This document shows, in pieces, positions 9,442-26,876 of a stretch of 35,894 nucleotides of DNA. This DNA comes from a virus, in the IMG/VR virus record IMGVR_UViG_3300031578_000171, positions 1 to 35,894 of that record; one strand, written 5' to 3'. The notes under the pieces were generated by a model that was given only the letters and a program-made list of their open reading frames with translations, was not told the DNA's origin and did no database searches. Position 1 is the first letter of the stretch. Each line of letters opens with the position of its first letter. The position numbers and the translations under genes were made by a program.

Positions 9442-10101
9442 CTATTTAGGACTCTTCTTCTTGTTTAACTTCTCCACGATCGGATCGACTTCTGCCTGCA
9501 ACCGTCGTTTCGATGTCTTGGAACCGTTTGTTCCAACGGCAGTTTCCTCAATTGACTCAAGAACCTTTTCCTTGAACTCTTCTGGCAGTTCTTGTATGCC
9601 GGTGACAACCGTGCGGAAAGCGAAGCTCTTGCGCCACATTTTCCATGCGGCATAAACAATGATGGCAAGTATAGCTACTCCAAACATAATAAGAGCCCAT
9701 GGGCCACTAAGTAAGACACGGCCCACAACAATGATGCCGATGCCGCTTGCTGCCACGTAAAGTCCAAGGCTCAACGACTTAGTCCACCATCCCAAGAAGG
9801 CCCCTACAACAAGCAGCAACCCGCCGCCAATGTAGAATAGCAACTGTCCCCGTGAACCGGCAGAATTGGAAGTAGGACCCGCTGCCGGGCGAGCCTGCCA
9901 TTCGTTCGCGCCAGTCTGTGCCATCTGCGTTGTTGCCGTTACTGGAGCATGCACTGGTGCTGGTGGCGGCGCCCAGCACGGGCTATTTGCAATGGTGGTT
10001 TTGGTAGCTCGTACGCCGTCACGTTCGGCAGTATCCGAGAGCCAGTAGAAGGTGCAGCCTGGAAAAACCATAAGCAAGATTATCGCTGCAAACAGTTTCA
10101 T
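9442..10101 (-). CDS. Membrane lipoprotein with three more TM segments
   Basis: A 219-residue protein. Residues 1-16 form a short signal ending in VFPGC, a plausible lipobox with C16 as the lipidated residue. A Pro/Ala/Thr-rich linker (35-80) follows. Then come three hydrophobic segments at about 86-106, 110-130 and 133-155, and a charged, Lys/Glu-rich tail (157-219) likely to be cytoplasmic. The gene is last on the minus strand, just before the terminator, and overlaps the upstream gene by ATGA with a strong GAAAGGAG site. No known holin or spanin motif is visible, but its place and topology make it a candidate for lysis or for altering the host envelope. Unrecognised family. Confidence 0.75.
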   Translation of the reverse strand: MKLFAAIILLMVFPGCTFYWLSDTAERDGVRATKTTIANSPCWAPPPAPVHAPVTATTQMAQTGANEWQARPAAGPTSNSAGSRGQLLFYIGGGLLLVVGAFLGWWTKSLSLGLYVAASGIGIIVVGRVLLSGPWALIMFGVAILAIIVYAAWKMWRKSFAFRTVVTGIQELPEEFKEKVLESIEETAVGTNGSKTSKRRLQAEVDPIVEKLNKKKSPK

Positions 10102-10589
10102 AGCTGTCTCCTTTCGATTACCGTTGTCTGTATTATGTGGTCATCCCAACCATCAGCAGTCACTTTCCCGTTTACCTTGTACAAAAGTGGTACATACGGG
10201 TTATTTGGGCGTAGGGACCCACGGAGAACACTTACTTCTACTCCAAAACAAGTCGGAAGATGTGTGCTGAGTAACGATACCAATGCTAAGCGACACTGGG
10301 TAAGTATCGGTGCTCCGCGAACAAGTCCGAGCCAGTTTCCCCATATCAATCCAGCAGCCTGGAACAGTACTCCGGCTGGGGAGTCGCCACCGAAACGTTG
10401 GAGCCCGTTGGCCCAAAAGAAGTCCCCTTCAGGCACGTCGCATTTGTGCAGTATTTTATTACAAATCAAGTACTCTCTGTTCCCGTACTCAAGTTTGTTG
10501 ACAACGGTGGCGTTCTCATTACTTGCAGTGAATCTGGCTCCATTGCTAGCGGCAACTGTCATAGCCTTCATGTTGCGCAGCTTAGACAT
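10098..10589 (-). CDS. Hypothetical late protein
   Basis: A 163-residue protein; I start it at ATG 10589, preceded by AAGAAGAGAAG, not at the upstream Met at 10640. It begins 10 bases after the dockerin-type gene stops and its last codons overlap the lipoprotein start by ATGA, so the three genes look like one unit. The N-terminal 30 residues are Ala/Asn/Thr rich (AMTVAASNGARFTASNENAT). The middle contains Gly/Trp-rich turns (FQAAGLIWGNWLGLVRG) and several Cys. The end reads as beta strands. No signal peptide or convincing membrane span is seen. I do not recognise it. Confidence 0.65.
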   Translation of the reverse strand: MSKLRNMKAMTVAASNGARFTASNENATVVNKLEYGNREYLICNKILHKCDVPEGDFFWANGLQRFGGDSPAGVLFQAAGLIWGNWLGLVRGAPILTQCRLALVSLLSTHLPTCFGVEVSVLRGSLRPNNPYVPLLYKVNGKVTADGWDDHIIQTTVIERRQL

Positions 10590-10599: not shown

Positions 10600-11694
10600 T
10601 TATAATGCTCTCTTACTGCAAGACCAGAGAAATAGTCCAATTACCAATAATGCACCCGTGGACATTTCGGGAACATCGGCGGCACTACCAACATCGTAAC
10701 CCCAGTTTGCAGCGAGAACCGATAAATCGTCAAGGTCCACGTCGTCGTCAAGATCCATGTCTCCGTCAGTCCACTTCATTCCTACCAGTGGCGGAGTCTT
10801 CCAGTTTGCAGCCAGAGTTGACAGGTCATCCAGATCGACATCGTTATCCAAGTCAACGTCGCCATTGTGCAGACCGAAGTCCGGCACCAATAGCAACTGT
10901 CCTATGAGTGCATCTTCGTGCATAAACAGCGTACAGGCAAATGAGTCGCCGCCGGTAAATACGCCAGTTAGACTACCTGACCATAAGTCGGTGCAGTTAT
11001 ACTCACCGTAAGCCGCCGGCATGCCGTCGATCTCGAAATCATTTCCAGTCAAAATGACTGTGCCGCCCCAAAAAAGGGATATAGCTCCCGAAGACAGGAA
11101 TGTCCCACCAATCATGGTCAATATGCCGAAATCGTGTGCTTGCAACTCATTCGTTATAGCATCGCCAGAGATCAGTACCCGCGAAAGACCGACTGACCGA
11201 ACAAGGTATATCGTCCCTGACGTGAAACTCGCATATCCGGTATCCTGCGCTGTCAAAATACTGGCATTCCCACCAGTTGCGAAAAAGGCACTACTACCCC
11301 CGGCAGACAATGACCCCGAATGCCCGCCTATAAAGTTTATTGTGCTGTTACTCTTGGCGTTGATGCAACCACTATTTTCGTCACCAGAAAAGTTAAGTGT
11401 TGCGTGATCGTCCACGTTTAAGGTCGCGACAGTACCGTCATCCATGTTGACGACACTTGTGTCGTGAATCCACAGATAGCATGAACCTAAACTCGCTCCC
11501 GTTGTAACATTGACAGTTGTTAGGCCAGCTGTCTCATGGTCGTAGATCTCCACAGGTTCGTTAATCTGGTAATCGATGGTGTGCGTCCCGCCATCGTTGA
11601 AGTACACAACAGCTTGGCAGGGCATGGCAGCGCACAACAACAAAATGACACTGGCCATTAGCTTCAGTCGGTAATCAGAAATTATACTGGCCAT
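10600..11694 (-). CDS. Secreted protein with dockerin repeats and PEP-CTERM-like tail
   Basis: A 364-residue exported protein. Start ATG 11694 has AGGAG seven bases upstream. Residues 1-28 are a signal peptide (hydrophobic MASVILLLCAAM, cleavage probably after CQA). Residues 30-270 are a Gly/Ser/Thr/Asn-rich beta-repeat region suggesting a right-handed beta-helix. Residues 278-298 and 311-332 are two dockerin-like Ca2+-binding repeats (GDVDLDNDVDLDDLSTLAANW and a close copy), in the form common in planctomycete secreted proteins. Residues 341-364 are a PEP-CTERM-like tail: VPE, a hydrophobic segment, then basic SKRAL. Such tails direct exosortase-dependent sorting to the envelope. In a phage this is probably a moron changing the host surface, or a host-acquired gene. 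It is strong evidence about the host, weak about its task. Confidence 0.85.
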   Translation of the reverse strand: MASIISDYRLKLMASVILLLCAAMPCQAVVYFNDGGTHTIDYQINEPVEIYDHETAGLTTVNVTTGASLGSCYLWIHDTSVVNMDDGTVATLNVDDHATLNFSGDENSGCINAKSNSTINFIGGHSGSLSAGGSSAFFATGGNASILTAQDTGYASFTSGTIYLVRSVGLSRVLISGDAITNELQAHDFGILTMIGGTFLSSGAISLFWGGTVILTGNDFEIDGMPAAYGEYNCTDLWSGSLTGVFTGGDSFACTLFMHEDALIGQLLLVPDFGLHNGDVDLDNDVDLDDLSTLAANWKTPPLVGMKWTDGDMDLDDDVDLDDLSVLAANWGYDVGSAADVPEMSTGALLVIGLFLWSCSKRAL

Positions 11695-11811
11695 CTTGAG
11701 GCTCCTATTTTTCTTTCCATGTCTTGTGTAACCAAACATACACCAAACGGTTTTTGTAAGTATGCCTTAAATTGGCACATGTCCTCACCGAGATTGTTAG
11801 ACCCATGTCTA

Positions 11812-12873
11812 TCATACGTAGGTAAACCCGTCAACCACATTCCAACGGACGTAGGAACGCTCGTATGAAGTCGCCATAGACAGGAAGCCACTCGATACCG
11901 CCTCGCCGACGCCCAGGGCCAGGGCCGAAAATGTTGGGGCCGTGGCGACATCTCCAACAGCATTGCTCGTGATCGTCGCACCGCTGCTGGCTGCGGTAGC
12001 CTGCGATTGGTAGTGGCTGTAGCTATCCTCTATCACATCGCAACCCTGCACGGCGTATTCTAGAGTAGCCCCCCCATAAATCCCAGGTGTCTTCTGCGTC
12101 ATCACATACCACTCAACGGTGCGGGCCACGGTATCATCCACCTCGACCTGCTGCGTCTTGCGCGCCCTATTGCACATCGAATGCCAAATGTTCGATGCTT
12201 CGCATTGCGTCGTCGCCGTGGCATTAAAAGCCACCGCCGCCGATTCGTGCCATGTGTCCGCGTCCCAGGCAGCAGCAGCGGCCGCCTCGGCGGCGGCGCG
12301 GTTGGGCTCGGAAACGCCCTGCCCCTGTCGATACGCCGGATCCACTATCGATATTGCGTCGCCGTCCAGGAGTTGCCATATCAGCATGTTCAGGGCCGTC
12401 TGGATATCGTACATGATCCAGGGGCCGATGATGTCACCCGCCACGGCATAGCCACCTGGCGAGATATAAGCCGGATCCGCCCAGTCCGTCCAATCGGTGG
12501 GGATAGTCGTAACTCGGCGGAACCCAGTATACTCGCCTCCACCACTCACGGCCTTTATCAGGTTGGCGGTCGTCCAAACGGGGATGGTTGTCTCACCGTC
12601 ATAGTAATCGGCGGCGCGGGGCGTCCCGTCGAGATCGTGGGACTGCACCCAATAATGTAAGGTATCAAAGATCCACTTTTGCAGGTCGGCCCATCCCATC
12701 CGACCTGCGGCGTGTGTTAGTGTCTGTGCGATGTCCCCGGCAACCGGCACCGACTTCGCAGCCTCCCCAAGGACCGTCAAGCGCTCGTTCCAGGCTCCGA
12801 CAAACTCAGTGGCATTGAGGACTCTATTGAAAGGCGTCGTGCCCCAGCCAAGACCTGTTGTTGTCCAACTCAT
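11812..12873 (-). CDS. Hypothetical tail-region protein, Ala/Trp rich
   Basis: A 353-residue protein at the distal end of the tail module. It is rich in Ala, Trp and Thr, with an Ala run (NRAAAEAAAAAAWDAD) near residues 192-207 and no signal peptide. The coding sequence is visibly more GC-rich than adjacent late genes, with codons such as GCC and GCG dominating, which hints at separate ancestry. It overlaps the upstream gene by ATGA. I see no catalytic motif. Its place downstream of the tape measure suggests a tail-tip, fibre or appendage protein, possibly receptor-binding. Confidence 0.7.
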   Translation of the reverse strand: MSWTTTGLGWGTTPFNRVLNATEFVGAWNERLTVLGEAAKSVPVAGDIAQTLTHAAGRMGWADLQKWIFDTLHYWVQSHDLDGTPRAADYYDGETTIPVWTTANLIKAVSGGGEYTGFRRVTTIPTDWTDWADPAYISPGGYAVAGDIIGPWIMYDIQTALNMLIWQLLDGDAISIVDPAYRQGQGVSEPNRAAAEAAAAAAWDADTWHESAAVAFNATATTQCEASNIWHSMCNRARKTQQVEVDDTVARTVEWYVMTQKTPGIYGGATLEYAVQGCDVIEDSYSHYQSQATAASSGATITSNAVGDVATAPTFSALALGVGEAVSSGFLSMATSYERSYVRWNVVDGFTYV

Positions 12874-13874
12874 GGGCCAACGAACCTCACATAGTCCCAG
12901 ACCGCCACGCCGCCGATGATGGTCAGGACTTGATAGTTTGTAACTGAACTTTCGGTGATGGTATGTTTATAGACGCCACCACCAACATCAGTGCCGATGA
13001 CGACTGTGTTCGCAGCAGGTGTCTTGGCTAGTGTGTCAGTGTGAACACCAGCGTTTAGGAGTGTGTGTGTTTTGACGCCACCGAAAGACAGCCGCACAAC
13101 AGCCCATTTTAGGCCAGTACCACCCTGGATCAACAGGATCTGAGCAGCTCCTGTGACCCCACTTGTGAGATAATCACGCTCATTGTTAGTGACGTCAGCA
13201 AAGTCGTGGTCAGTACTCGTTACATTGATCTTTACCGGGCAGACACCGGCAGCGTAGCCGGAACCCTTTGCTCCACTTAGAATGTCCTGTGCTGCTATCA
13301 CAAATAATCCGGTGTGAGCGGCCGTTGTCGGAGTTATTCCGGAAATTGCTACACGGCGTTTGAATTCTGGAAGATCAGCTGTGGGGTCAACTATGGCGGC
13401 ATCAATACCGAGGATTTGACAAGCAGTAATGTTGACACCGCTAGCATTTTCGATAAGAATAGTATGGGAAAGTTCAGTCGGTCCTACTATTACCCCTGCA
13501 ACATTGTAGTCGTCTTCAGGATGCGGGATGTAACGGAAAATGGTATCGGTACTCGCCTCCGATATTAGTCCGCTGATTACGTCGTCTCCAGTACTCCCAG
13601 TATACACCACTATATTGAACAGGTCTGCATTGGCACTGTAATATGCTCCATTCCTGTCGCACTCTCTCAGTGTCAGCGTGTTCCCACCAGTGTACGCCGC
13701 TTTCGGTCTACCGAACCGCACGTCAGGATCCTGTGGGGTATGGTAGGTACCCATTGGACCAGACTCAACACCCTTTCCTGTCGGTCTGCCGTGGAAAATC
13801 GTATCAAGCAAATCGTTGTAGTCAGTTGCCCTTATTCTACTCTTACCGGCGATTTTTCTAGTTAGCTTAGCCAT
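12870..13874 (-). CDS. Probable tail-tip or fibre protein
   Basis: A 334-residue protein starting with a basic segment (MAKLTRKIAGKSRIRATDYNDLL) that resembles the virion-attachment N terminus of phage appendage proteins. The rest is Gly/Thr/Val/Ala rich with short hydrophobic strands, as in beta-structured fibres (for example NIVVYTGSTGDDVISGL and YQVLTIIGGVAVWDYV). No enzyme motif is visible. It follows the tape measure and one other tail gene by tight spacing (one base after the previous stop) and overlaps the next gene. The structural role is inferred from position and composition. Confidence 0.7.
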   Translation of the reverse strand: MAKLTRKIAGKSRIRATDYNDLLDTIFHGRPTGKGVESGPMGTYHTPQDPDVRFGRPKAAYTGGNTLTLRECDRNGAYYSANADLFNIVVYTGSTGDDVISGLISEASTDTIFRYIPHPEDDYNVAGVIVGPTELSHTILIENASGVNITACQILGIDAAIVDPTADLPEFKRRVAISGITPTTAAHTGLFVIAAQDILSGAKGSGYAAGVCPVKINVTSTDHDFADVTNNERDYLTSGVTGAAQILLIQGGTGLKWAVVRLSFGGVKTHTLLNAGVHTDTLAKTPAANTVVIGTDVGGGVYKHTITESSVTNYQVLTIIGGVAVWDYVRFVGP

Positions 13875-13875
13875 A

Positions 13876-14634
13876 TCAGAAATAATCTCCGAAAGATCTT
13901 TCGAAATCTATCGCCTCGTAAAGCTCATAATCTTCTCCGGTTTCCCCATCAAACAGTTGGTTTTCGTTCCATGTTATAAACTCCGGTTTTCTGGTTTCTC
14001 CGAATTCAATGCGACCGGCTCTAATCCCGAAATTCAGAACCACATCAGAGTACCCTTTGGAATTTGTGTGAATTTGTGGGCCTTCAAACAGCCAAGTGTT
14101 CGGTGGGAAGGTATACCAGTAGTCGTCGTTGACACAGCAGGAAAAACGGAGAAGGTCGAAGATTTGCGCGCGGCTGAGTAAACCGACTACCAAATTCCGC
14201 GAATAATGTACAGTGATGCCAAGCACATCCAATTCTGGCGGAATCTTCTTTTCGTTGAAGTCTTGACGTGCCTTGATAGAACCGATAGAAGTTTCCAGCG
14301 AGTCGCTTTGGTATCCGAGAGCTTCTGGATCCGGTATCTCGATGTCTTCGCTTGTTAATCCACTTCCTGGTCCATAATTGACCTCGATCTTAGCATGCTT
14401 TACTCCCTCCACAACGTTGAATGGCCGTATAGTTATACCCCTGACTAAACTGTACGGGTCGTCCGGATGCTCTGCCCACAATTTAATGGGACCCGGCGGA
14501 GTAGACCCAGGGGTTAGAGCAGCTAAAGCAACCAAGGCACCGTCATACGGACCCTCCAAGTAGCGTACGATCGTTGTCCCGGAATCCGCTGAAAGGGATA
14601 TTTCTCCGCTTGTGTAGCTTTCAATATATTCCAT
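13876..14634 (-). CDS. Probable distal tail protein
   Basis: A 252-residue protein encoded two bases after the tape measure stop, where siphophages place the distal tail or baseplate hub gene. The N-terminal 75 residues are beta-rich, the middle (85-130) is acidic and helical, and residues 140-200 include a Phe/Tyr/Trp-rich stretch (DDYWYTFPPNTWLFEG). No known distal-tail motif can be confirmed by eye, so the name rests on gene order. Confidence 0.65.
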   Translation of the reverse strand: MEYIESYTSGEISLSADSGTTIVRYLEGPYDGALVALAALTPGSTPPGPIKLWAEHPDDPYSLVRGITIRPFNVVEGVKHAKIEVNYGPGSGLTSEDIEIPDPEALGYQSDSLETSIGSIKARQDFNEKKIPPELDVLGITVHYSRNLVVGLLSRAQIFDLLRFSCCVNDDYWYTFPPNTWLFEGPQIHTNSKGYSDVVLNFGIRAGRIEFGETRKPEFITWNENQLFDGETGEDYELYEAIDFERSFGDYF

Positions 14635-14636
14635 AT

Positions 14637-17222
14637 TTAGTGTCCCCAGACGGCATTTCCGATATTAGCGATTACTGTGTCTATTGCACGACTGACTTCT
14701 TTGGCAATCTCGCTTAACAGATTCTTTGATTCTTCGATGTTTCTTGCCTGTTGTTCCGGTCCCCACTTACCTTTTGTTTCCTGGACTCCCTTTGATTGCA
14801 TTAACAGCTTCCCACGCATGCCGAAGAAGACCCCACCAGGTGTGACGTACCGCTCACGAGCAAACCTATCGGTAACGGCTTTCAACTTGCGCTCATACTG
14901 CAGCGATTTCTTGATTCGTTCTTCTGTATATCCCCATCGCAGAGCCTCAACCCGCACCCAACGGTCAAGTTTGGCCCGTTCGATTTCTTCCTCTGTGTGG
15001 TCAAGTTCGTACAGTCTCCAAGCAGAATCAATGTACCACTTTCTAATTTTATTGGCTTCAGTTGTAGCATCCTTTATACTACGTTTCAACCGCTTGTCAT
15101 CTTCCTCAGCAGACAACCTCGCGGTCTCTGCCAACTGGTCTTGTTCTATTCTTCCAATTGACTGTATTAAAGCGCGGTACCGCAATCCCATCTCATAGCG
15201 GTCAGTTTCCAATCTTGCACGCTGTTCACCGAGTTTTTTGTACAACTGGGACTCGTGTCTCAGACTAGCACTACTTTTAGCAAGATCTGTCAGTTTCTCA
15301 TCATAGTAAGTGCTCCATGCTTCCCTTTCCTTATATATTCCAAGTAACTCCTTATCCGTTGATTCACGTACCATGGAGAGTTCTTTTTCATGTTCCGACA
15401 TACCGATTCTGGCAAGGTTATAACGAACAGCATGTAACCTTTCGGCGAACAGGAGCTTTTTCTTATCGAGTTCTAATGTCACCTTTTCAAAGCGTGTTTC
15501 AGCGTCCACTGCCATCAACCGGTCTTGTTCATATTTCAGCGCGGTTTTCAATGCTTGTACGCGGGTATTCAGGTAAACTCCCTCGGATGCGTAACCGGCT
15601 AATATGGCATCAATTCTAGCCTTTGATACATCTGTTGTTTCTTCGTATCCTCTCATTCCTTTGAAAGCCAATTTTTTCTCTTCAATAGCTTCAGCACGGA
15701 GCTCAACCTCTTTGAGAAGGCGAAGTAATTGCTCCACTCTTGTTGTTGCCTTTGGTCCGGCCTGCAATTCCCCGAGTTCCCTCATAGCATTGGCCGCTTT
15801 TTCCATGTGTTTGCCGGTTTCCTCTGTTACTTCTTCAAGTTTCCTCATTATCACCATTTGCTTGTTTGCATACCAGCCGATGGCAGCAAGCCCGATGACA
15901 AGAACAGCAAGGGTGGCTGAAAGTGCAACAGTGGCGATTTTTGCGATAGTGGCTGCTGCTGCTACACCTTTCCAAGCAATAGCTATCTTTGTGAGCAGTG
16001 CAGAGATACCCAACTTGGCAAGAGTCCAACCAAGAATTTTCCACCCAGCCGCAAAGCCAACTAGCACAAGAGTGATTGACGTAATCCATCCTATTATTGA
16101 CTTTGTTCTTTCTGGCAAAACTGTTACGCCCTTGGCAAACATCTCAGTACCTTCGAGCGCAGCCTTGACAGCTGGCAGATAACTTTCTCCGATTTCTCTT
16201 GACAAAGCGCCAATAGACTTTGTCAACTGCATAACCCTGAATTGCGCTGTGTCTTGTACTATTGCCAACTTTTCCGTTGTTAGTCCGGCTCTTTCCTGCA
16301 TATACGTCAAGTCTGACAGATAGCCCTCGTAGTTCTTTATCAGGGCTGCTACTGCGCGGTACCCACGGATAGTTGGAACAATTTGTCCGAGCTGCTCAGC
16401 AGTCGCATTTTTGAGGAGTTCTAGTACTCCGGTAAGACCGAGCACTTGCAGTGTCTGCTGGTTCATCTGCATGCCGAGATTCCTACCGGCTTCTTCCGTC
16501 GATCTGAGCGGACGCATAAAGGCACGGAGTAATCCAACCAGCGCCGTCATAGCTCGCGGTGCCCTCATTCCGGTACGAGTGATCGTTGAAATGGCAGCGC
16601 CAAGTTCCTCAAGACGTATTCCAGCCATGCCTGCAGACGGAGCAATAATACCGACAACTGGAGCCAGTTCATCCATCGTGACTTTGCCGCGGCGAACGAC
16701 AGCCCATAACCAGTCAGATATGTCGCCGGCACGAGTAGCCGCCATAGCGTAACTATTCAGCATCGTCGTAATGGCATCACCAGCAATTTGAACCGATGTG
16801 AAGCCGGAGACTGCTAGCTTACTGGCTTGTGTGAGTACATATAGCGACGTTCCCACCGGAACCATGGCTGACAGTACATCGTAAAGGGCCCGTGACATTA
16901 CTTTGGTAGATTGGGCAAAGTCAACAGACAGCTGTTTGACCCTGTCTGACAGCTCCCTCATAAGTATTAGTTCTTTACGCTCTAGTAAGGTTGCCACCAT
17001 GGCCATCTGGTATTCAAACATGGCCGCTGCCGTTGTCGTAGCAGTGATAGCTGTGACCAATCCAGAAAAAGCAGCAATCCCAGCCGCTTGTATCGCGGTC
17101 ATCACCTTCGGGTTTTCTTTGATGAGCTTGTGTAGTGAATCCCACTTTTGTCGGAAGACTGTGTCTTTGAGGCCTACCTCGATGTAGACTCCACCGATTT
17201 TTTTGTCTCCGCCTTCAGCCAT
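14637..17222 (-). CDS. Tail tape measure protein
   Basis: An 861-residue protein, the longest in the window. Residues about 60-330 match the TP901-type tape measure core: an amphipathic helical region with VMSRALYDVLSAMVPVGTS, then KLAVSGFTSVQIAGDAITTML and the GKVTMDELAPVVGIIAPSAGMAG stretch. Hydrophobic segments lie near 40-65, 380-400 and 425-450. Residues 460-800 are long charged helices (Glu/Lys/Arg/Leu), likely coiled coil. At the usual about 0.15 nm per residue it would set a tail of roughly 130 nm. It directly follows the tail chaperone genes, its stop-start contact being ATGG-type overlap at 17222. Confident from both sequence and order. Confidence 0.93.
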   Translation of the reverse strand: MAEGGDKKIGGVYIEVGLKDTVFRQKWDSLHKLIKENPKVMTAIQAAGIAAFSGLVTAITATTTAAAMFEYQMAMVATLLERKELILMRELSDRVKQLSVDFAQSTKVMSRALYDVLSAMVPVGTSLYVLTQASKLAVSGFTSVQIAGDAITTMLNSYAMAATRAGDISDWLWAVVRRGKVTMDELAPVVGIIAPSAGMAGIRLEELGAAISTITRTGMRAPRAMTALVGLLRAFMRPLRSTEEAGRNLGMQMNQQTLQVLGLTGVLELLKNATAEQLGQIVPTIRGYRAVAALIKNYEGYLSDLTYMQERAGLTTEKLAIVQDTAQFRVMQLTKSIGALSREIGESYLPAVKAALEGTEMFAKGVTVLPERTKSIIGWITSITLVLVGFAAGWKILGWTLAKLGISALLTKIAIAWKGVAAAATIAKIATVALSATLAVLVIGLAAIGWYANKQMVIMRKLEEVTEETGKHMEKAANAMRELGELQAGPKATTRVEQLLRLLKEVELRAEAIEEKKLAFKGMRGYEETTDVSKARIDAILAGYASEGVYLNTRVQALKTALKYEQDRLMAVDAETRFEKVTLELDKKKLLFAERLHAVRYNLARIGMSEHEKELSMVRESTDKELLGIYKEREAWSTYYDEKLTDLAKSSASLRHESQLYKKLGEQRARLETDRYEMGLRYRALIQSIGRIEQDQLAETARLSAEEDDKRLKRSIKDATTEANKIRKWYIDSAWRLYELDHTEEEIERAKLDRWVRVEALRWGYTEERIKKSLQYERKLKAVTDRFARERYVTPGGVFFGMRGKLLMQSKGVQETKGKWGPEQQARNIEESKNLLSEIAKEVSRAIDTVIANIGNAVWGH

Positions 17223-17515
17223 TAGCTTTCCTTAAAGGTTACTCCGGCCATTTTAGCAGCCAGTCGTAGGTCGTCGACGGTTTGTACCCTAACTGCCTGT
17301 CCACCAGTAAACAGGTGCCCACCTGACGGCGTGCCGGAATAATCTGCTGGTTCTAACAATCTTTCAACCTCAGCAATTTTCCAGACAAACAACTTTGCCT
17401 GGTAAAGCGACAGTTTTCCGACATCTTCGACACTCATTCTGTAATACTTAATTAGTAGAGGAACTGATTGGTCCCATGTCAGCTCTCTGGCTTTTGGGTC
17501 GCCTCCTCTACTGCT
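17222..17515 (-). CDS. T-frame extension of the tail chaperone
   Basis: The C-terminal 97 residues that only the frameshifted product carries. A conventional gene caller would report only the part from ATG 17437 (71 residues), but the frame is open upstream to 17515 and codes for sensible protein (TWDQSVPLLIKYYRMSV). There is no ribosome-binding site convincing enough to explain an independent start at 17437. It contains a helical stretch (LYQAKLFVWKIAEVERLLE) and then a Gly/Val-rich end. The T part contacts the tail tube in lambda. Confidence 0.75.
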   Translation of the reverse strand, partial: SSRGGDPKARELTWDQSVPLLIKYYRMSVEDVGKLSLYQAKLFVWKIAEVERLLEPADYSGTPSGGHLFTGGQAVRVQTVDDLRLAAKMAGVTFKES

Positions 17516-17955
17516 AAAGGGTTTTCAACACCGGTTGGGTAGTTGAGCTGATCGAGGAGTGTGATCACCTCACTGATATTGGTAATTGTTACCAGACTGC
17601 ACACTTCTTCTTCTGTAACTCCGGTGTTCAACTTGGAGACTGCACGCAGCAAGAAGAAACGCACGCCGAGGAGAGAACGCGACATTTCCATTTTCTCTTC
17701 GTCCGAGAAGACGTGTGCAAATAGCTCGACAATGGTGTTCTTGACTAACTCGGAGTCGAGATTAGCTTTCGCTGCACACTTCAGGAAGTCGTCCACTCGC
17801 TTAGCTTTGATATGCTCTTCGAAGTCGGCCATATCGTTGAGGTTTGTGCGCTGAGCCTGTAACTTTCTGCCACCAATCGTGATTTCACGCGAGGAGGCGA
17901 GTATCTCCGACAGTTGTGTTCTACCGGAAACGGTGTTTTCTGCAGCGTTGCCCAT
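17222..17955 (-). CDS. Tail assembly chaperone GT fusion by -1 frameshift
   Basis: Predicted fusion of the two chaperone frames: read 17955 down to 17515, slip back one base, then read 17515 down to 17222, giving 147 + 97 = 244 residues. The heptamer CCCTTTA (minus strand, 17521-17515) is in the right phase (C-CCT-TTA) for -1 slippage. The second frame is closed by TGA one codon upstream of the slip window and is open from there, through the region where no start codon exists, to its stop at 17222. The joined part reads as normal protein (SSRGGDPKARELTWDQSVPL and on). A 9-bp stem lies 2 bases downstream. In lambda, gpG and gpGT coat the tape measure before tube assembly; the same role is expected here. 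Confidence 0.82.
17479..17955 (-). CDS. Tail assembly chaperone G-like protein
   Basis: A 158-residue helical, acidic protein made without frameshifting. It starts at ATG 17955, with AAAGG about 10 bases upstream, and lies between the tail tube and tape measure genes, the fixed position of the G-type tail assembly chaperone. Residues 20-130 alternate charged and hydrophobic residues (RTNLNDMADFEEHIKAKRV), and the end is ENPLAVEEATQKPES. The Pro-Leu codons of ENPL are the slippery site. The chaperone binds the tape measure and recruits tail tube subunits; family assignment is by order, size and the frameshift signal. Confidence 0.8.
   Translation of the reverse strand: MGNAAENTVSGRTQLSEILASSREITIGGRKLQAQRTNLNDMADFEEHIKAKRVDDFLKCAAKANLDSELVKNTIVELFAHVFSDEEKMEMSRSLLGVRFFLLRAVSKLNTGVTEEEVCSLVTITNISEVITLLDQLNYPTGVENPLAVEEATQKPES
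17504..17521 (-). promoter_or_regulatory. -1 frameshift signal: slippery CCCTTTA and stem
   Basis: On the minus strand, CCCTTTA occupies 17521-17515. The arm AGTAGAGGA begins two bases later (17512-17504) and pairs perfectly with TCCTCTACT at 17462-17454, leaving a 41-base loop that holds a further CTGA/TCAG hairpin. A heptamer of form X XXY YYZ plus a downstream structure is the classic -1 frameshift layout; the same heptamer is used by Giardia lamblia virus. The spacer is shorter than the usual 5-9 bases unless the first pairs are melted. Confidence 0.8.
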
Positions 17956-17973
17956 TTTCTGTAATCCTTTCTG

Positions 17974-18354
17974 TTAGATCGCGCCAATTGTCAGGTCGTC
18001 CGTGCCACGGAAGTTGACCGTGCAGGCACCGAGGCCGCCGACAGGAGCAGACGGGTTAATCGACAGGCAAAAAGCGTTGCCCTTGAAACCGAACCCGGTA
18101 GCAACCACGAGTTCCAACGAGGTCGCGGCGGCACCAGGAGCCGGTAGGGCTGCCGTGTCATCGAGATGCACGGTCATCGACCCGCTCCAATTCTTGAGAC
18201 CCCCCCTGTATGAACGCCAACCGGTAGAGGCGAAGGTGGTTTTGTCCAACTCATCAGCCTCTACAGTCAGCGACCATTCGTGTGCGTTGACGACGGCGTT
18301 CGCATGGCCGCCTGCCCATGACACACTCGCATCGTACCCAGCAAATTCTGTCAT
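17974..18354 (-). CDS. Major tail tube protein
   Basis: A 126-residue protein with the order and features of short siphophage tail tube proteins: NAVVNAHEWSLTVEADELDKTTF leading into a WRSYRGGLKNWSGSMTVHLD segment, then a beta-rich Gly/Ala half. This pattern (a strand ending in a change from Asp/Glu to Thr, then trp-containing loop) is common in tail tube families. It uses a good GGAG site upstream and lies just after the terminator-type protein and before the chaperones, the canonical place. It polymerises around the tape measure to form the tail. The proposed name is well supported by order and moderately by sequence. Confidence 0.82.
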   Translation of the reverse strand: MTEFAGYDASVSWAGGHANAVVNAHEWSLTVEADELDKTTFASTGWRSYRGGLKNWSGSMTVHLDDTAALPAPGAAATSLELVVATGFGFKGNAFCLSINPSAPVGGLGACTVNFRGTDDLTIGAI

Positions 18355-18366
18355 TTTCTTTCTCCG

Positions 18367-18789
18367 TTAAATGTTCGTTGTTACTTTTCCTAAAACCAAA
18401 CGGTAATTAGTTACGATGTGCCAAACACCGTCGTCTTCCCTGATTGGATGGACTCTTGTTCGCATGCACATGTAACTGTTGTATTCTTCGCCTGCAAACT
18501 CCAACGTTACATTGTCGTAGGCAGCGTGGACCTCTTCCAGAATTTCGCTGGATTCTGAAATGTCCTCACTCTTGGAATAAACATTGATGCTTAGTGTCAG
18601 GTTCTCAATCTCAGATACGCCGCAGAAAGTGTACTCAACCGGTCCACTGATCAAATCGACGACAATGAACGGGAACACAGCAGTTTTCTGCGGTGCAAGA
18701 CTGAGGTAAACTCCAGTAACCCTGTTCATTAGGTCCGGAGCGCTCTTCGCCACATTTCCAATAGCCTCAATTATTGCTTTCAGATTCAT
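18367..18789 (-). CDS. Tail terminator / DUF3168-like protein
   Basis: A 140-residue protein with the pattern of the tail completion/terminator family: helix at the start (KAIIEAIGNVAKSAPDLM), then FPFIVVDLISG, then a beta-rich half with LTLSINVYSKSED and the ending HIVTNYRLVLG. Members close the top of the tail tube and bind the head-tail neck. It lies directly upstream of the tail tube gene. The residue pattern is suggestive; the gene order makes it likely. Confidence 0.72.
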   Translation of the reverse strand: MNLKAIIEAIGNVAKSAPDLMNRVTGVYLSLAPQKTAVFPFIVVDLISGPVEYTFCGVSEIENLTLSINVYSKSEDISESSEILEEVHAAYDNVTLEFAGEEYNSYMCMRTRVHPIREDDGVWHIVTNYRLVLGKVTTNI

Positions 18790-18795
18790 GTTTTC

Positions 18796-19182
18796 TCAAT
18801 CAACGTACGGCTTGCCAAGTAGGCGAATGATAGTCGGCATGGCACCGTAGGTAGTTTTCCAGAAAATTGGACGAGCAGCCATGTTAACGGTGCCGTCTTC
18901 AAGACAAGAGGCATAAAGACAGGTAGAACCAACAAAAATCCTTGGGTACCCGTTTGGAGCATCAATCCAGTGTATGCTCTCTATGAGTTCTCCTGTGCGA
19001 TACCGCGGTGGTTCCCCTGCGCGTGATGCTGGAGGATAAGCCAGACTAATCTCCACTTTTATCGCGTTTACCAAAAAATCTCCAGCTGCCCTGAGTCTCT
19101 GGTTGAGCTCAAGTAGCGTCTTGTTGACGAATTCTTTGATCTGCAGAGACATGTAATAATTGAAGTTCATTTCAAATGCCAT
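18796..19182 (-). CDS. HK97 gp10-like neck protein
   Basis: A 128-residue protein resembling the HK97 gp10/phage minor head family: a long N-terminal amphipathic helix (LLELNQRLRAAGDFLVNAIKV), then YPPASRAGEPPRYRTGELIESI, which is the typical Pro-rich loop followed by a Gly-Glu-Leu helix, and a final beta half (IFVGSTCLYASCLEDG). It overlaps the head-closure gene by 11 bases. The role is a head-tail neck or completion protein. Confidence 0.8.
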   Translation of the reverse strand: MAFEMNFNYYMSLQIKEFVNKTLLELNQRLRAAGDFLVNAIKVEISLAYPPASRAGEPPRYRTGELIESIHWIDAPNGYPRIFVGSTCLYASCLEDGTVNMAARPIFWKTTYGAMPTIIRLLGKPYVD

Positions 19183-19513
19183 TCTGGTCTATCTCCTCAA
19201 GTCTCAGTACTGCTCGTATTCCGGCTTCGTCGACGTCACGAATTCCGGTGATACTGAGATAGCGGGAACCAAACACCACTCTGCAAGTGGCATCTACACC
19301 TGAAAGTCTCTTTGGGTCGCAGTACATCTTGTGTGTGGTAGTCTCTGTTGTTTGGGCAGCTCTTATCTCCTCGAAGGAAGTCAGTGGACGGATACGACAA
19401 TGCAAACGACGCACGACTCTCGTCCAAGTAACTACCGGAGTCAAGTAGTCCCCTGGAGCCCGTGTTGGCTTCTCAATATCAACCGTATGGATATAGAGGC
19501 CGGATGGGTCCAT
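19172..19513 (-). CDS. Head closure / head-tail adaptor protein
   Basis: A 113-residue protein similar to the SPP1 gp16-like head-closure family: a beta-barrel pattern with WTRVVRRLHCRIRPLTSFEE, then KMYCDPKRL and YLSITGIRDVDEAG near the end. Head-closure proteins seat on the connector and block DNA exit before tail joining. It lies between a small membrane protein and the gp10-like gene, with a one-base stop-start overlap upstream (TAATG). Confidence comes from fold pattern plus order. Confidence 0.78.
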   Translation of the reverse strand: MDPSGLYIHTVDIEKPTRAPGDYLTPVVTWTRVVRRLHCRIRPLTSFEEIRAAQTTETTTHKMYCDPKRLSGVDATCRVVFGSRYLSITGIRDVDEAGIRAVLRLEEIDQNGI

Positions 19514-19743
19514 TACCCTTTACCTTTCCCGAAGCTTCTTATCTCTTCAGCTAGGCGTGTCAAAACTTCCGTGTTCTCTTTCATGTGGTTACCAATCAAA
19601 TCGAGATAATACTTGCGCTCGCGGCACGCCTCTTCCTCCCTGCGAGTGATATAACGAAGGAACAACACCACAGTGGTGATGACGGAAGCAGCCATTCCTG
19701 ATTGAAAAACCCAGTCGTAACTTATCTGCGCAATAATTGCCAT
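19513..19743 (-). CDS. Small single-pass membrane protein
   Basis: A 76-residue protein starting at ATG 19743, which overlaps the connector stop (TGATG). Residues about 13-32 form a hydrophobic helix (GMAASVITTVVLFLRYI), followed by a charged Arg/Glu/Lys region and a short amphipathic helix (HMKENTEVLTRLAEEI). It could be a holin-like protein or a virion-anchored factor, but it sits in the head-tail joining cluster, an odd place for a holin. Function unknown. Confidence 0.65.
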   Translation of the reverse strand: MAIIAQISYDWVFQSGMAASVITTVVLFLRYITRREEEACRERKYYLDLIGNHMKENTEVLTRLAEEIRSFGKGKG

Positions 19744-20852
19744 CACCTGTCAAGTCTCCTATTCATAAACATGCTTAGGGCCCTTTCAAATCTGTCAGAA
19801 GGAGTTATGGCATCGGCCACCCACCGATAATCTCCGAGGGTTTCTGACTTCAAAGAAAGATTGCGACGTATGTCGGCGTATTGGATGACTATTTCAGAAT
19901 ATATGATAGAAGCCAATTCTGCCGGAATGGTTTCATACCCGCTGCGGTACTTAACAATGACGTTGTCGATGCCGGAAGCCCAACCAGTTGACAGGAACAA
20001 AATCCCACGGTCAGAGTAGACCGCGTAGTCAGAAAGGAAGTTGGACGGGACATACGAGGTAACCCAGGTGTTGAGGACATACTTTCCAGGAGATGGAATC
20101 AGGTCAGCACTGGCATGGTCTATACTGGCAGCAACCACTGCTTCCCATCCATTTCCTAGTGCGTTGATGGCGGCGACCATCGTCGACAAAGTTGTATGAG
20201 CAGAGAACAGCAGAGCACTCACCGTTTCGGTTGCTCCAATTTTTACTGTCAGCGTTATCCCGATTGATGAGACAACGACAAAAGCGGTAGAAGCTGTGGT
20301 GCTGGAGTTACGAACCATGATTCCGTTGGCTGTGGAAGTTGCCACATAATAGACGGAGATAATAGGAAAGTGATCTAGCAATAACTCGGTGTCGTTGTTC
20401 CCATCCATAAATACGCGCCTATCGGTAGCCGAGAATACCATCCCACAGATCTTCTCTGCTTGGGCGCTGACCCCATCGCACAGCTGGTCGATAATCCAGT
20501 TGTTTACGACTTGCAACACCGCTAGGTTATCTTCTAACAGGCAGGCTGTCGCTGCAGTCCGCACGAAATCTGTCGGGTCGTTTCCTGGCACCCCGACAGC
20601 CACAACCGACCAGTTGGCTGAACCGGCGTTGACTGCTGTGACTAGTGCTGTCACCGTTGCGTAGGTAGCCAGAATGTAAGTAGTGGTTCCATTGATATTG
20701 TCGACAAGAACTAGGCCAGTCGTCGTTATCTCGACAGTCGCCGAAGTAACGCCGGCTTCTGCTGTCTTGTAAACTTCCAGACAGTCCACTCGCAGATCGA
20801 GGTCTGAGATCTTCAACCGGTCTTTGGTATTTTGGACAGTTACAAGACTCAT
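19743..20852 (-). CDS. Head-tail connector (gp6-like adaptor) with inserted repeats
   Basis: A 369-residue protein. The start LVTVQNTKDRLKISD and the end AELASIIYSEIVIQYADIRRNLSLKSETLGDYRW are those of the gp6-like connector family, which is normally about 100-200 residues. Here extra sequence is present: two copies of a beta module at about 35-97 and 186-256, each with an Ala/Thr helix such as ATVTALVTAVNAGSANW or TTLSTMVAAINALGNGW. The ATG 20852 (AAGGA upstream) is preferred over TTG 20858. It should form a ring below the portal. The insertions might be exposed on the neck. Confidence 0.75.
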   Translation of the reverse strand: MSLVTVQNTKDRLKISDLDLRVDCLEVYKTAEAGVTSATVEITTTGLVLVDNINGTTTYILATYATVTALVTAVNAGSANWSVVAVGVPGNDPTDFVRTAATACLLEDNLAVLQVVNNWIIDQLCDGVSAQAEKICGMVFSATDRRVFMDGNNDTELLLDHFPIISVYYVATSTANGIMVRNSSTTASTAFVVVSSIGITLTVKIGATETVSALLFSAHTTLSTMVAAINALGNGWEAVVAASIDHASADLIPSPGKYVLNTWVTSYVPSNFLSDYAVYSDRGILFLSTGWASGIDNVIVKYRSGYETIPAELASIIYSEIVIQYADIRRNLSLKSETLGDYRWVADAITPSDRFERALSMFMNRRLDR

Positions 20853-20854
20853 TA

Positions 20855-21169
20855 TCAATCCTTCAGGTACCGCGCTGTTCTTTCAAGTTTCATTGTTGTT
20901 TTCCAACCGTCGCCCGTAATAGTAGCCATAACATAGTAGTTGCCATCTTCAACGAGTGTTACAGTCGACGGGACCTCTCCGACGTAACATCCGTCAGAAT
21001 ATACAATGAAAGACAATGGGAGATCAATTGCTCCTGCTACAGCCACCCCAGCTTCTGTGTAGAGGGTGGCAGTTATGATCGCGTCGTTTATATACCCTTT
21101 GGTGACCGCGTTCCTTAGACCCGAAAGGTACACCGCGGTGTCTGTCAGAATCCAAATATGTTCGCTCAT
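20855..21169 (-). CDS. Beta-rich virion protein
   Basis: A 104-residue protein with an Ig-like or beta-sandwich pattern: YLSGLRNAVTKGYINDAIITATLYTEAG, then LSFIVYSDGCYVGEVPS and ALVEDGNYYVMATIT-like strands. Such small domains are frequent in phage virion genes between head and tail. It is separated from the next gene by a TGATA-ATG contact. No enzymatic motif. I describe it as a probable virion decoration or fibre-associated protein. Confidence 0.65.
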   Translation of the reverse strand: MSEHIWILTDTAVYLSGLRNAVTKGYINDAIITATLYTEAGVAVAGAIDLPLSFIVYSDGCYVGEVPSTVTLVEDGNYYVMATITGDGWKTTMKLERTARYLKD

Positions 21170-21170
21170 G

Positions 21171-21392
21171 CTACTTTACCCTCGTCGACATCTCTCCGCC
21201 CATCCGCGGGAAGGTTTCCGCACTCCCACAAATACGCGGGAATATCTCCATACTGCCACCGATACGCGGGAATGTTTGCATTCGTCCCCTGACAATTAAC
21301 TCAACTTCAAGTATCAGAGAGAACAAGGCACTGATCATATACGTTCGTTCCCGTTGATCAAGCAACGCATCCGGCCAGAGGAATAGATCCAT
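21171..21392 (-). CDS. Small protein with three FPR[IM]xG repeats
   Basis: A 73-residue protein. The N-terminal 35 residues form a helical, partly hydrophobic segment (RTYMISALFSLILEVELIV). The C-terminal half is three tandem 10-residue units of form MxTFPRIGGS, MEIFPRICGS and AETFPRMGGE. The stop lies one base before the next gene's start. I recognise no family. The repeat could be a binding or assembly element. Confidence 0.6.
   Translation of the reverse strand: MDLFLWPDALLDQRERTYMISALFSLILEVELIVRGRMQTFPRIGGSMEIFPRICGSAETFPRMGGEMSTRVK
21194..21290. repeat. Three-copy 30-bp tandem repeat
   Basis: The 6-base core CGCGGG recurs at 21205-21210, 21235-21240 and 21265-21270, exactly 30 bases apart, within the coding sequence of the small protein. 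The copies are imperfect and encode the FPR[IM]xG units. Confidence 0.85.
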
Positions 21393-23176
21393 TATGCATC
21401 CTCCGCTTTAGCCCACTGCTGCGTCGTTCCGTCGTCTGTGACAGCCTGTTCAGTTACCGGTGTAACTCCAGTGTTTTCGTAGGTAGTCGCTGTGCCAGTT
21501 CCGCCGACTCCCTTGACCAGTTTGTTTCTGCCGAAGAATCGCAAGAACAATTGGACAACCATCCCGCGGAAGGTCGTCGCCACTCCAGTTGGTGAGGTGA
21601 TAGGAAGGGTATCTAACCCATCAGCGGCTAATGCATAACCATTTTTACTGTCACAGTCAATAATAGTGGCAGACGCTGCAGAAACCTTTGTTCTGTCGTA
21701 TCGCGTATTCGTGATAACCATATCAACTGCGCCGGCACTCGTGTACAAATCATAACTTCCACCACTGCCAATCGTACTCGTGTAGATTCGGCAGTTCTCG
21801 ACAAGGACCGTTGTATCATATGTACCCGAGTCCTTTTTGGTACGGATTCCACACACAGGCGATGTAATGTTTGCGTGACTGCCCCTGCCATACAGATCAC
21901 AGTTGCGCAGTATAATACAACCCCGCTCAGCATACAACGGGGCGATTATCTCAGCACCGGCAACCGCTTTATCAGCCCACAGTTTTGTGTTTTCGACTAC
22001 TACAATAGGATTACCTCCTACTATAGAGATTGGACGACAGTGATTTGCACCACCATAGGACCCGTCACTCTCAAGCCAGCAGTTCCGAATCAACCAGTTC
22101 CCGGCTTCAATTGCAATTCCATCATAGTCACACTTAACACGACAGTTTTCGATGCGCATATTTGTGATACCGCCTGTATCACGTATCCCGTCTTGCGAGA
22201 CATCGATGTCGCAGTCATGGATAAATATGTTCTTTCGCGCGTCAGTTTCGGCGGCAAATATACCGATTCTGGTCGCTGATGTTATGGACATGCACCCAAT
22301 TTCACAGTCATCGTAACAATTGAAAAGTTCGTTTATACCGTCACCAGTTATATTTGTGACACCAATCCCAGCCCCAATCAGTCGTAGTGACTTTGTAGCT
22401 GCTTTGAGATCCGTACTCTCAGCATATGTTCCCGCTGCTATCATCATAGTATCACCACTCGCGGCAAGCGTTATGGCTTGGGCTATGGTGGCTTTTGCGT
22501 CAATCGGCGATTTGCCCGAATAGGCGGCGTTACCGTTGGTGCCGTCAACGAACCACGTATTACCGGCGATTGCGGAGTCGTGAGTTCGTCCAGCGAGAGC
22601 GCCATGGAGTGTAATTCCGCCAGTCCCATCAAGAAGATCGTCAAGTTTGGCAGCAGAAGCCGCTGCCAGACCAGATACAACTATGCCAGTTGCCGCAGTA
22701 ATATTGGTTGGCGTGGCTAACCCACTCTGGATTTTTGTTACAGTAGCAGCTTCAACACTCGCTGCATCAATCCAATCTGGCGGTGCGGCAGGAAGATTTG
22801 TTAAAGTGGTTATTGTGCCGCTATCAGCTTCAACATGCGGACTTAGATCACATTCAACCACTGCAGGTAGAAACAGGACATTGTCTTCAGTCACCATCAA
22901 TTGAACGTGGTCAACACCGGTAGCAAAGGCAGCATCGGGAAAGTCTACGCGCCACAGACCGTTGCCGCAATTAAAGATCTTGTTGTCTTCGTGCGCCGAA
23001 TTGGCAGCAGCCAGAAGAGCCGGACAACCAGTTAATACCTGGGCAGCCTGGTCCCGCTGATAGATCACGTTAAAGTCGGTAGTGGGGCTTGGGTTCGTTG
23101 CCCACGTGCCGCCAGTCACACCATCCTGGAGGTTAAAGTATGCAGATTGGTTTGTTGCGTTCTTGGCGACTATCAT
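21392..23176 (-). CDS. Beta-helix virion protein, probable receptor-binding/tail spike
   Basis: A 594-residue protein. The N-terminal 110 residues (MIVAKNATNQSAYF start; GLWRVDFPDAAF near 94-105) are a virion-attachment domain common in phage structural genes. Residues about 210-500 are a right-handed parallel beta-helix of the pectate-lyase-like type: repeated units with Asn/Asp-rich turns such as NTWFVDGTNGNAAYSG, FIHDCDIDVSQDG, RIENCRVKCDYDG and LRNCDLYGRG. The C-terminal 60 residues contain FLRFFGRNKL followed by a Thr/Gly-rich end. Such folds are used to bind or degrade surface glycans. No catalytic residues can be assigned by eye. It is unusual that it lies between the capsid and connector genes, away from the tail genes. 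Confidence 0.82.
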   Translation of the reverse strand: MIVAKNATNQSAYFNLQDGVTGGTWATNPSPTTDFNVIYQRDQAAQVLTGCPALLAAANSAHEDNKIFNCGNGLWRVDFPDAAFATGVDHVQLMVTEDNVLFLPAVVECDLSPHVEADSGTITTLTNLPAAPPDWIDAASVEAATVTKIQSGLATPTNITAATGIVVSGLAAASAAKLDDLLDGTGGITLHGALAGRTHDSAIAGNTWFVDGTNGNAAYSGKSPIDAKATIAQAITLAASGDTMMIAAGTYAESTDLKAATKSLRLIGAGIGVTNITGDGINELFNCYDDCEIGCMSITSATRIGIFAAETDARKNIFIHDCDIDVSQDGIRDTGGITNMRIENCRVKCDYDGIAIEAGNWLIRNCWLESDGSYGGANHCRPISIVGGNPIVVVENTKLWADKAVAGAEIIAPLYAERGCIILRNCDLYGRGSHANITSPVCGIRTKKDSGTYDTTVLVENCRIYTSTIGSGGSYDLYTSAGAVDMVITNTRYDRTKVSAASATIIDCDSKNGYALAADGLDTLPITSPTGVATTFRGMVVQLFLRFFGRNKLVKGVGGTGTATTYENTGVTPVTEQAVTDDGTTQQWAKAEDA

Positions 23177-24288
23177 TGTTTGCCTCCTGCCTTACCAATC
23201 CTCGGCAGCCACATACTCGGTAGTCCACGAGCAAAGCGGAGTACGTTATTGCCGGCGTCATCCATCGCAACTTCGCTTCGCAATTCACCTGCACCAAGCA
23301 ACAGTCCGAACTTGTGGTTTACTTTGTCTTCATAGCCGTCAGTCGCGCCTATTACCTCGGTGTTAACCCCTTTGTACAACGAGGCAAGCTTGACACCGAC
23401 AGATATTCCAGTGTTGCCGGCAAAGTAGTTGAACAGGTCGATAATGTACGCCGTGTCCATGTAGATGGCTCTAGTTGTGTTGTTTGTTAACCGGTTGCCA
23501 AACGCCAGAATAGGTCCATCAGTACCATACAAACCGTACTGCTGACCGTCCATCACACAGAACGCAGCTACCTGACAAGGAGCCAGTCTGAACCCAGCCG
23601 TGCCACAATCATGTGCAAGACACACTATATGAGCTGATGGACCTGAAGTTGGAAAAAAGCCATAGGCGGAATTGTCGATTGCAGAACAACCAATAAACAT
23701 GCATCGGCCGGTCGAGGTATACCCAAATGCGTTCCCGTTAGCTTGGCAACCGAAAAATATGCTGTCGTAAAACCTCTTTAATCCAGCAATACTGTCACCC
23801 CAACCGCTGATAACAGCATCATGAGAATAACAATTGATAAAGGCTATTCCGTATGCATGATTAGTTATGCAAACCGCGTTGCTGCCTATTGAACGATCTA
23901 ATTCGAAGTTGCGAAATGTGAGGTCGTACATTGAGTCAAACGACAAGCAGTTGACTGCCCCACCAGCTCCTCCACCGTCTAACTTAGTGCGTGTACCGTT
24001 TTCAACCCAACTATCTCCAGCCTCGATGCCGATGTACGTAATTGGTGTTCCCAGAGCCGAGTCGCCGACATTGATGTCAACATTTATGGTAACAGCGCCG
24101 ACGCCCCTATCATCATTTCCGGTGTTATTGAGCATGTACGTGCCGCGGATGTACACTGTGTCACCAGCAATTGCTGTGTCGAAAGCCAATTGCAGACCGG
24201 ATGTGTTTAACCAGGGGTTTGCCGATGTGCCAACATCACCGCCACCCCCTACATTCTGTCCATCGTCAACATAATAGGTACTGGCCAT
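23173..24288 (-). CDS. Second beta-helix virion protein
   Basis: A 371-residue protein, entirely beta-helix-like. It starts with STYYVDDGQNVGGGGDVG, the typical lead-in of pectate-lyase-like proteins, then repeats of Asn/Asp/Cys-rich rungs (FINCYSHDAVISG, FFGCQANGNAFG, FIGCSAIDNSAYG). It overlaps the previous gene by four bases. No separate attachment domain is seen at its N terminus, so it may assemble on the 594-residue protein or on the head. Receptor-binding, decoration or glycan-depolymerase functions are all possible; no active site is obvious. Confidence 0.78.
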   Translation of the reverse strand: MASTYYVDDGQNVGGGGDVGTSANPWLNTSGLQLAFDTAIAGDTVYIRGTYMLNNTGNDDRGVGAVTINVDINVGDSALGTPITYIGIEAGDSWVENGTRTKLDGGGAGGAVNCLSFDSMYDLTFRNFELDRSIGSNAVCITNHAYGIAFINCYSHDAVISGWGDSIAGLKRFYDSIFFGCQANGNAFGYTSTGRCMFIGCSAIDNSAYGFFPTSGPSAHIVCLAHDCGTAGFRLAPCQVAAFCVMDGQQYGLYGTDGPILAFGNRLTNNTTRAIYMDTAYIIDLFNYFAGNTGISVGVKLASLYKGVNTEVIGATDGYEDKVNHKFGLLLGAGELRSEVAMDDAGNNVLRFARGLPSMWLPRIGKAGGKQ

Positions 24289-24289
24289 T

Positions 24290-24748: not shown

Positions 24749-24809
24749 CGTAAGACCTTAATGTCTGTTTCTTCCACACAACTGTTGTCAGCGTCCTGCA
24801 ATCCATCGA

Positions 24810-25441: not shown

Positions 25442-25481
25442 GTTAGGTCCTTTCTTGCCGGACGTATCCGGCGTGTTGCCC

Positions 25482-25994: not shown

Positions 25995-26035
25995 TATTTA
26001 TACCTTTCTTTCTTTTTCTTGGTTTCTGGCAGTTC

Positions 26036-26785: not shown

Positions 26786-26827
26786 TAACATTTTCCTTTC
26801 TTCTGTCGTAGAAAACTAGCAATGAGC

Positions 26828-26876
26828 GGCAGGCATCTAAGGGAGGAAACGCCGGAAGCACCTAAAGATGCCTGCC
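26828..26876 (-). terminator. Hairpin between virion genes
   Basis: A perfect 11-bp inverted repeat (GGCAGGCATCT at 26828-26838, AGATGCCTGCC at 26866-26876) with a 27-base loop lies in the 112-base gap between two late genes. On the minus strand it is followed about 10 bases later by a TTTT run, so it may be a weak terminator or an mRNA-processing hairpin setting the ratio of capsid to downstream proteins. Confidence 0.5.

Follow-up and report, generated by a model that had tools for sequence, protein, structure and literature searches.

A Phycisphaerae-type envelope-protein gene in the late operon of a tailed phage and its possible role at the host envelope

Why should a tailed phage carry, among its late genes, a gene for a secreted protein with dockerin-like repeats and a PEP-CTERM-like tail, and what could the product do for it? 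The gene lies in a viral stretch of 35,894 nucleotides, an IMG/VR virus record (G000) that is referred to here, over its whole length, as the window. On balance, we favour the account in which a Phycisphaerae envelope-protein gene has come to reside in a phage late operon and its product alters the host envelope. An earlier note on this DNA had described a signal peptide, beta-repeats, two dockerin-like repeats and a VPE-hydrophobic-basic tail, all of which are found in the sequence, and had placed the gene at 10600–11694. We retain these limits as the better choice of start: the ATG at 11694 is preferred over the start at 11739 because AGGAG precedes it at 11702–11706. The gene, its parts and its two downstream neighbours are as follows.

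10600–11694, minus strand: gene for the secreted dockerin/PEP-CTERM-like protein, 364 amino acids (from sequence and homologues)
10600–11739, minus strand: longer open reading frame P0001, a mechanical ORF call of 379 amino acids from the alternative upstream start at 11739
11702–11706, minus strand: Shine-Dalgarno sequence AGGAG ahead of the ATG at 11694
11611–11694, minus strand: predicted Sec signal peptide, likely cleaved after PCQA (from sequence and an AlphaFold helix at P0001 residues 12–38)
10882–11607, minus strand: beta-solenoid domain, P0001 residues 45–286, homologous to Phycisphaerae ‘DGGxHxIDYxIN...’ PEP-CTERM proteins
10798–10863, minus strand: dockerin-like repeat 1 (GDVDLDNDVDLDDLSTLAANWK), from host-tail homology and an AlphaFold helix at 303–312 of low pLDDT
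10699–10764, minus strand: dockerin-like repeat 2 (GDMDLDDDVDLDDLSVLAANWG), from host-tail homology and an AlphaFold helix at 336–345 of low pLDDT
10603–10674, minus strand: degenerate PEP-CTERM-like tail VPEMSTGALLVIGLFLWSCSKRAL, VPE-hydrophobic-KR, assigned by its position relative to host tails
10098–10589, minus strand: g2, a 163-residue phage-only partner 11 bp downstream of the gene, 38% identical to a neighbour gene in podovirus G795 (see below)
9442–10101, minus strand: gene whose product has a lipobox and a number of predicted membrane segments, and is like a holin or spanin in its anatomy alone

Read from the upstream start, the minus-strand frame 10600–11739 (P0001) begins MFGYTRHGKKNRSLKMASIISDYRLKLMASVILLLCAAMPCQAVVYFNDGG... 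and contains the signal peptide MASIISDYRLKLMASVILLLCAAMPCQA, followed by VV at the likely cleavage site (judged from sequence and hydropathy; the h-region has a mean KD of 2.26). The AlphaFold2 model of P0001 (10 homologues) shows a beta-solenoid at residues 45–286 with a pLDDT of about 90 and, after the short helices 303–312 and 336–345, a C-terminal helix at 360–378. Foldseek gave no match to this model at E<0.01, and the beta-solenoid has no match that points to an activity. The two repeats (GDVDLDNDVDLDDLSTLAANW and GDMDLDDDVDLDDLSVLAANW) both contain xDLDDLSxLAANW, and DxDxDxDVDxxD occurs twice, as tandem predicted Ca loop-helix repeats in a region of low pLDDT; the acidic ligands of the dockerin/EF-type Ca loop are intact in both loops, and Gly6 is replaced by Asn/Asp. 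No model in Pfam, NCBIfam, PHROGs or PDB directly matches the protein. In particular, neither the whole protein nor its C-terminal 90 residues reach the dockerin type I cut-off of PF00404, and PF07589 gives no match at E≤1.

The homologues, on the other hand, give a clear indication of where the gene comes from. In a protein search at E≤1e-4, the full protein matches 105 of 298 Phycisphaerae genomes (Sedimentisphaerales counted within Phycisphaerae), with a best match of 1.5e-17 and 53% identity over residues 289–369; of 289 genomes of the control class, Alphaproteobacteria (to which an unrelated Sphingomonadales genome belongs), none is matched. Across 84,980 genomes, the N-terminal pattern DGGxHxIDYxIN is present on seven contigs. 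Five of them come from Phycisphaerae, Sedimentisphaerales or Anaerohalosphaeraceae MAGs and encode secreted homologues, several of which end in canonical PEP-CTERM tails; the match in L021 is due to chance, and the remaining one is in L023, from a Staskawiczbacteria MAG. A profile built from 21 host tails gives the phage C-terminal 90 residues 95.4 bits, where the highest-scoring of 2000 shuffles has 15.4, and this signal comes mainly from the dockerin pair. The tails of the host homologues are above the PF07589 cut-off and mostly above that of PF00404 too, whereas the phage C-terminus matches neither. It is because the host homologues pass these cut-offs that we use the domain names dockerin and PEP-CTERM for the phage protein. 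The earlier note had looked to profile models for similarity in the C-terminal residues; they do not provide it directly, and the relationship is found only through the host homologues. Its view of the protein as planctomycete in type, and of the dockerin/PEP-CTERM architecture as abundant in these bacteria, is borne out for Phycisphaerae by the genome matches. Judged from these comparisons, the gene is almost certainly homologous to Phycisphaerae modules and host-derived in origin.

Other probes were less informative. A strict 42-base dockerin pattern had no match in viral or genome contigs, the looser HTIDY[EQ]IN pattern drew only unrelated proteins from viral contigs, and an alignment of eight C-terminal sequences was too diverse for a viral scan. 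The planctomycete-type PEP-CTERM gene of the Staskawiczbacteria contig (L023 4362–5168, minus strand) is at its extreme end, possibly by mis-assembly or contamination, and a Phycisphaerae homologue with beta-domain and dockerin-like region (L019 742–1161 and beyond) is interrupted by an in-frame TAG.

The Phycisphaerae ‘DGGxHxIDYxIN’ PEP-CTERM proteins (L017, L075, L122) are like the window protein in their signal peptide, N-terminal motif, (I/V)xxSGG-type strands, closing FxxxGxxxxYG...LTGxLxxGD segment and C-terminal tail. In most of those found, no dockerin pair separates the domain from the tail (the exceptions are L112 and the interrupted L019), and their tail is canonical, VPEP...RRRR, unlike that of the window protein. 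The Phycisphaerae dockerin-pair proteins with PEP-CTERM tails (L049, L124; PF00404, PF07589) are 53% identical to the window protein over 81 residues and share with it two Ca loop-helix repeats ending in LAANW, about 30 residues apart, and then V-P-E and a hydrophobic stretch. Compared to these, the phage copy lies below both Pfam models, has PEM for PEP and fewer basic residues, and carries the Gly6 to Asn/Asp change.

The phage tail reads VPEM; the near-invariant Pro-Glu-Pro, kept in 18 of the 21 host tails, is absent. Its hydrophobic stretch has a mean KD of 1.75 over 14 residues, the basic residues are just the K and R of SKRAL, and the Arg cluster of the host tails is lost. With a tail-only PEP-CTERM profile it scores 5.6 bits, a score reached by 2 of 1000 shuffles, while the tails of two other phages score 21.5 and 24.8 bits (0 of 1000 shuffles). 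By its position, the tail appears to be homologous to the host tails, with a degenerate sorting box. According to Haft et al. (2006; PMC1569441), PEP is near-invariant and its partner is EpsH/exosortase; compared to the system described there, the window protein is alike in its signal peptide, V-P-E, putative transmembrane stretch and some basic residues, and differs in having no Pro-Glu-Pro and in being encoded by a phage without an exosortase. Each of the ten Phycisphaerae genomes tested has an exosortase (PF09721), and the window phage has none. As PEP is PEM, exosortase processing of the phage copy is doubtful, and we regard cleavage as possible rather than probable. We have not filed the protein under PF07589 or PF00404, since it lacks the PEP motif that defines such tails and matches neither Pfam model; its sequence indicates that it descends from PEP-CTERM surface proteins and would work like one.

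The window is a tailed phage with a minus-strand late module and a plus-strand early module. The late module encodes terminase, portal (PF04860), a protease/methyltransferase fusion, capsid (PF05065), tail proteins and tape measure, after which come three more tail-region genes and then the window gene, g2 and the lipobox gene; the early module encodes DNA polymerase A, PD-(D/E)XK, AAA_24 and DUF669 proteins. The gene is thus flanked by phage genes, with terminase, portal, capsid and tape measure on one side and the replication module on the other. Its GC and GC3 agree with the phage (GC3 0.52, near the neighbouring phage genes). The 11-bp spacing suggests that it is translationally coupled with g2, whose stop is overlapped by 4 bp by the start of the lipobox gene; the product of the latter has no family match. 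A scan that covers, among promoters, those of the sigma70 type only gave neither a promoter nor a terminator match on the flanks of the gene. The earlier reading of the gene as a moron is plausible insofar as a host-type gene stands within a phage late operon, but no promoter or terminator of its own was found and the gene is embedded beside g2 and the lipoprotein gene. Contig G001 is 99.97% identical to window 12024–35894 and ends at 12024, short of the gene; it therefore offers no independent second copy by which the junction could be confirmed or selection tested.

Searches of IMG/VR, INPHARED phages and PLSDB by exact peptide or tblastn found no relative. A scan of IMG/VR with VDxxDLxxLAxNW retrieved G795 (IMGVR_UViG_3300033153_003790; 42,149 bp, with a 114-bp terminal repeat, Head-tail_con portal and gpA-type terminase), which by its sequence is a complete podovirus, otherwise unrelated to the window phage. 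The viral loci compared below are these.

L138 9413–11058, minus strand: C13-peptidase dockerin/PEP-CTERM gene, podovirus G795 locus
L142 15742–16425, minus strand, and G797 26264–26734, plus strand (in L143): PEP-CTERM / dockerin-like loci of G797
L141 15515–17434, plus strand: dockerin/InlB-like protein of viral contig G793

The G795 protein has a signal peptide, a Peptidase_C13 domain where the window protein has a beta-solenoid, a dockerin pair and a canonical VPEPTILMILLGGLFVLRRSR tail (VPEP...RRSR). Its dockerin/PEP tail is 51% identical to the window protein over 85 residues, and its stop codon overlaps the start of a gene for a 147-residue protein homologous to g2 (38% identity, E 8e-36). 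The tail and g2 are the only proteins common to the two phages. In G797 (IMGVR_UViG_3300009285_002054), a contig of 49.6 kb, some ORFs look by eye like helicase and clamp-loader genes; a secreted protein with a canonical PEP-CTERM tail is encoded in what seems to be the replication operon, and a second secreted protein, dockerin-like, at another place. The terminase/portal/capsid contig G793 (IMGVR_UViG_3300032397_000113) has a gene for a secreted protein in which a dockerin pair occurs with InlB-type repeats. PEP-CTERM-type tails occur on at least three phage contigs, degenerate in the window and canonical in G795 and G797.

Nothing in Pfam, PHROGs, PDB, INPHARED or PLSDB matches g2 itself, nor does anything in 397 Phycisphaerae genomes (a search run without a positive-control genome), and its AlphaFold model was unusable (pLDDT 41). 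A third g2 (26–28% identity) is on the 14-kb contig L149. Judged by terminase (36%) and portal (32%), no contig found apart from G001 is a closer relative of the window. In L149, g2 comes after a sigma-factor-like gene and has no PEP-CTERM neighbour. PEP-CTERM is thus beside g2 in two of three loci, and the PEP-CTERM gene acts as the variable part. As to whether relatives of the phage carry the gene, a check proposed in the earlier note, L149 has no such neighbour at g2 and G001 ends at 12024; a similar dockerin/PEP tail occurs in the unrelated G795. Both L149 (6608–6988, minus strand) and the window (9442–10101, minus strand) have a lipobox followed by several hydrophobic segments; sequence similarity between the two was not detected.

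The gene content suggests a Phycisphaerae host. The proposal that the phage infects an exosortase-bearing planctomycete agrees with this content and with the exosortases of the Phycisphaerae genomes; the terminase and the spacers lend it no support. The terminase was rejected as a host marker, as it matches 17 of 397 Phycisphaerae and 33 of 385 Alphaproteobacteria genomes and so has no phylum specificity; L108 alone, a Phycisphaerae prophage-like locus, has terminase, portal and capsid in common, at about 25–30%. The suggested link through CRISPR spacers failed: a DNA search with window 12000–31999 found no spacer match and no spacer array among 198 genomes, yielding mainly low-complexity GA-rich matches at 28557–28660 and two isolated weak ones. 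The stretch 28557–28660 is GA-rich, codes for acidic residues and is matched spuriously by the DNA of many genomes.

The phage context, the module-by-module homology to Phycisphaerae, the operon position and the sorting module beside g2 in an unrelated phage are all evident from sequence. We infer that the product would be exported and anchored in a Phycisphaerae host, whose envelope it may shield. In our model, a gene whose ancestor encoded a Phycisphaerae envelope protein would now be expressed with the phage late operon; the protein would be made late in infection, very probably exported via Sec, and its signal peptide removed. The C-terminal hydrophobic tail would hold it at the envelope, with the beta-solenoid and then the predicted Ca-binding dockerin-like pair displayed on the periplasmic or outer side. 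The envelope would be altered before progeny release, most likely by shielding against adsorption or superinfection, or by a surface change; a shielding or exclusion function, as opposed to lysis or another role, is suggested only tentatively. Since an unrelated phage has a similarly sorted protein beside a g2 homologue, such phages may equip the host envelope with proteins in the style of the host's own. More speculatively, Phycisphaerae phages might share a mobile cassette in which a secreted effector domain that can be exchanged (beta-solenoid, C13 peptidase) is fused to a planctomycete dockerin/PEP-CTERM sorting module and paired with g2, which would use the host exosortase to place phage-chosen proteins onto the envelope late in infection; we think this rather unlikely.

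The cassette of envelope-tethered protein, g2 and lipoprotein/membrane protein could instead assist lysis or exit, breaching or reshaping the planctomycete envelope at release, with the N-domain exchangeable. The gene stands where the late operon ends, directly ahead of the lipoprotein/multi-membrane-segment gene, and the G795 counterpart is a peptidase. In G795 the cassette is flanked by the small terminase gene on one side and the tail-spike/large terminase genes on the other, in a region in which T7-like phages carry lysis genes. However, endolysin, holin and spanin models match none of the three window genes, the window N-domain has no recognised enzymatic fold, and L149, which bears g2, has a separate lysozyme-like ORF (by eye). 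We consider this role rather unlikely.

Chance capture of a host gene, now neutral or decaying as a transduced passenger, would explain the degenerate PEP box (PEP to PEM, Arg cluster lost) as lost constraint, and with G001 ending at 12024 there is no second gene copy. It seems improbable given the open full-length frame, the good ribosome-binding site, the coupling to downstream genes, the Ca ligands kept in both loops and the similar module beside a g2 homologue in the unrelated G795. That the product is a virion component (tail fibre or decoration), secreted in appearance only, is very improbable: beta-solenoids are common in tail spikes and the gene is downstream of tail genes, but the protein has a signal peptide and a C-terminal hydrophobic tail, its homologues are host secreted PEP-CTERM proteins, and it matches no tail-protein family. 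The break of the near-identical G001 at 12024, just short of the gene, might point to an assembly chimera or to bacterial contamination of the viral contig; with phage genes on both sides, one operon, agreeing GC3, g2 immediately downstream and an equivalent pairing in the independent complete phage G795, this is extremely improbable.

We return to the preferred reading, a host-type protein placed at the envelope by the phage. Ltp of TP-J34 (PMC3952083) is a phage-encoded surface lipoprotein that acts in superinfection exclusion. The window protein would, like Ltp, be a phage product on the host surface, an analogy of function only; unlike the window protein, Ltp has a lipoprotein anchor, a Gram-positive host and a gene in the lysogeny module. 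Phage-encoded envelope proteins are already known; here two unrelated phages have the dockerin/PEP-CTERM module together with g2, a gene otherwise unknown. A literature search on PEP-CTERM, phage and exosortase returned no title or abstract on a phage gene with a PEP-CTERM/exosortase-type tail. If confirmed, the finding would provide a sequence handle on phages of exosortase-bearing planctomycetes, which are largely uncultivated, and a way of testing phage exploitation of exosortase sorting.

Elsewhere in the window, repeated sequence at the contig end (35475–35894) shows as several alignments with the start of L001 that overlap one another, and the ORF at 29452–31164 (minus strand) fuses a class-I methyltransferase (PF08241, residues 222–309) with an XkdF-type protease (PF14550, residues 456–569).
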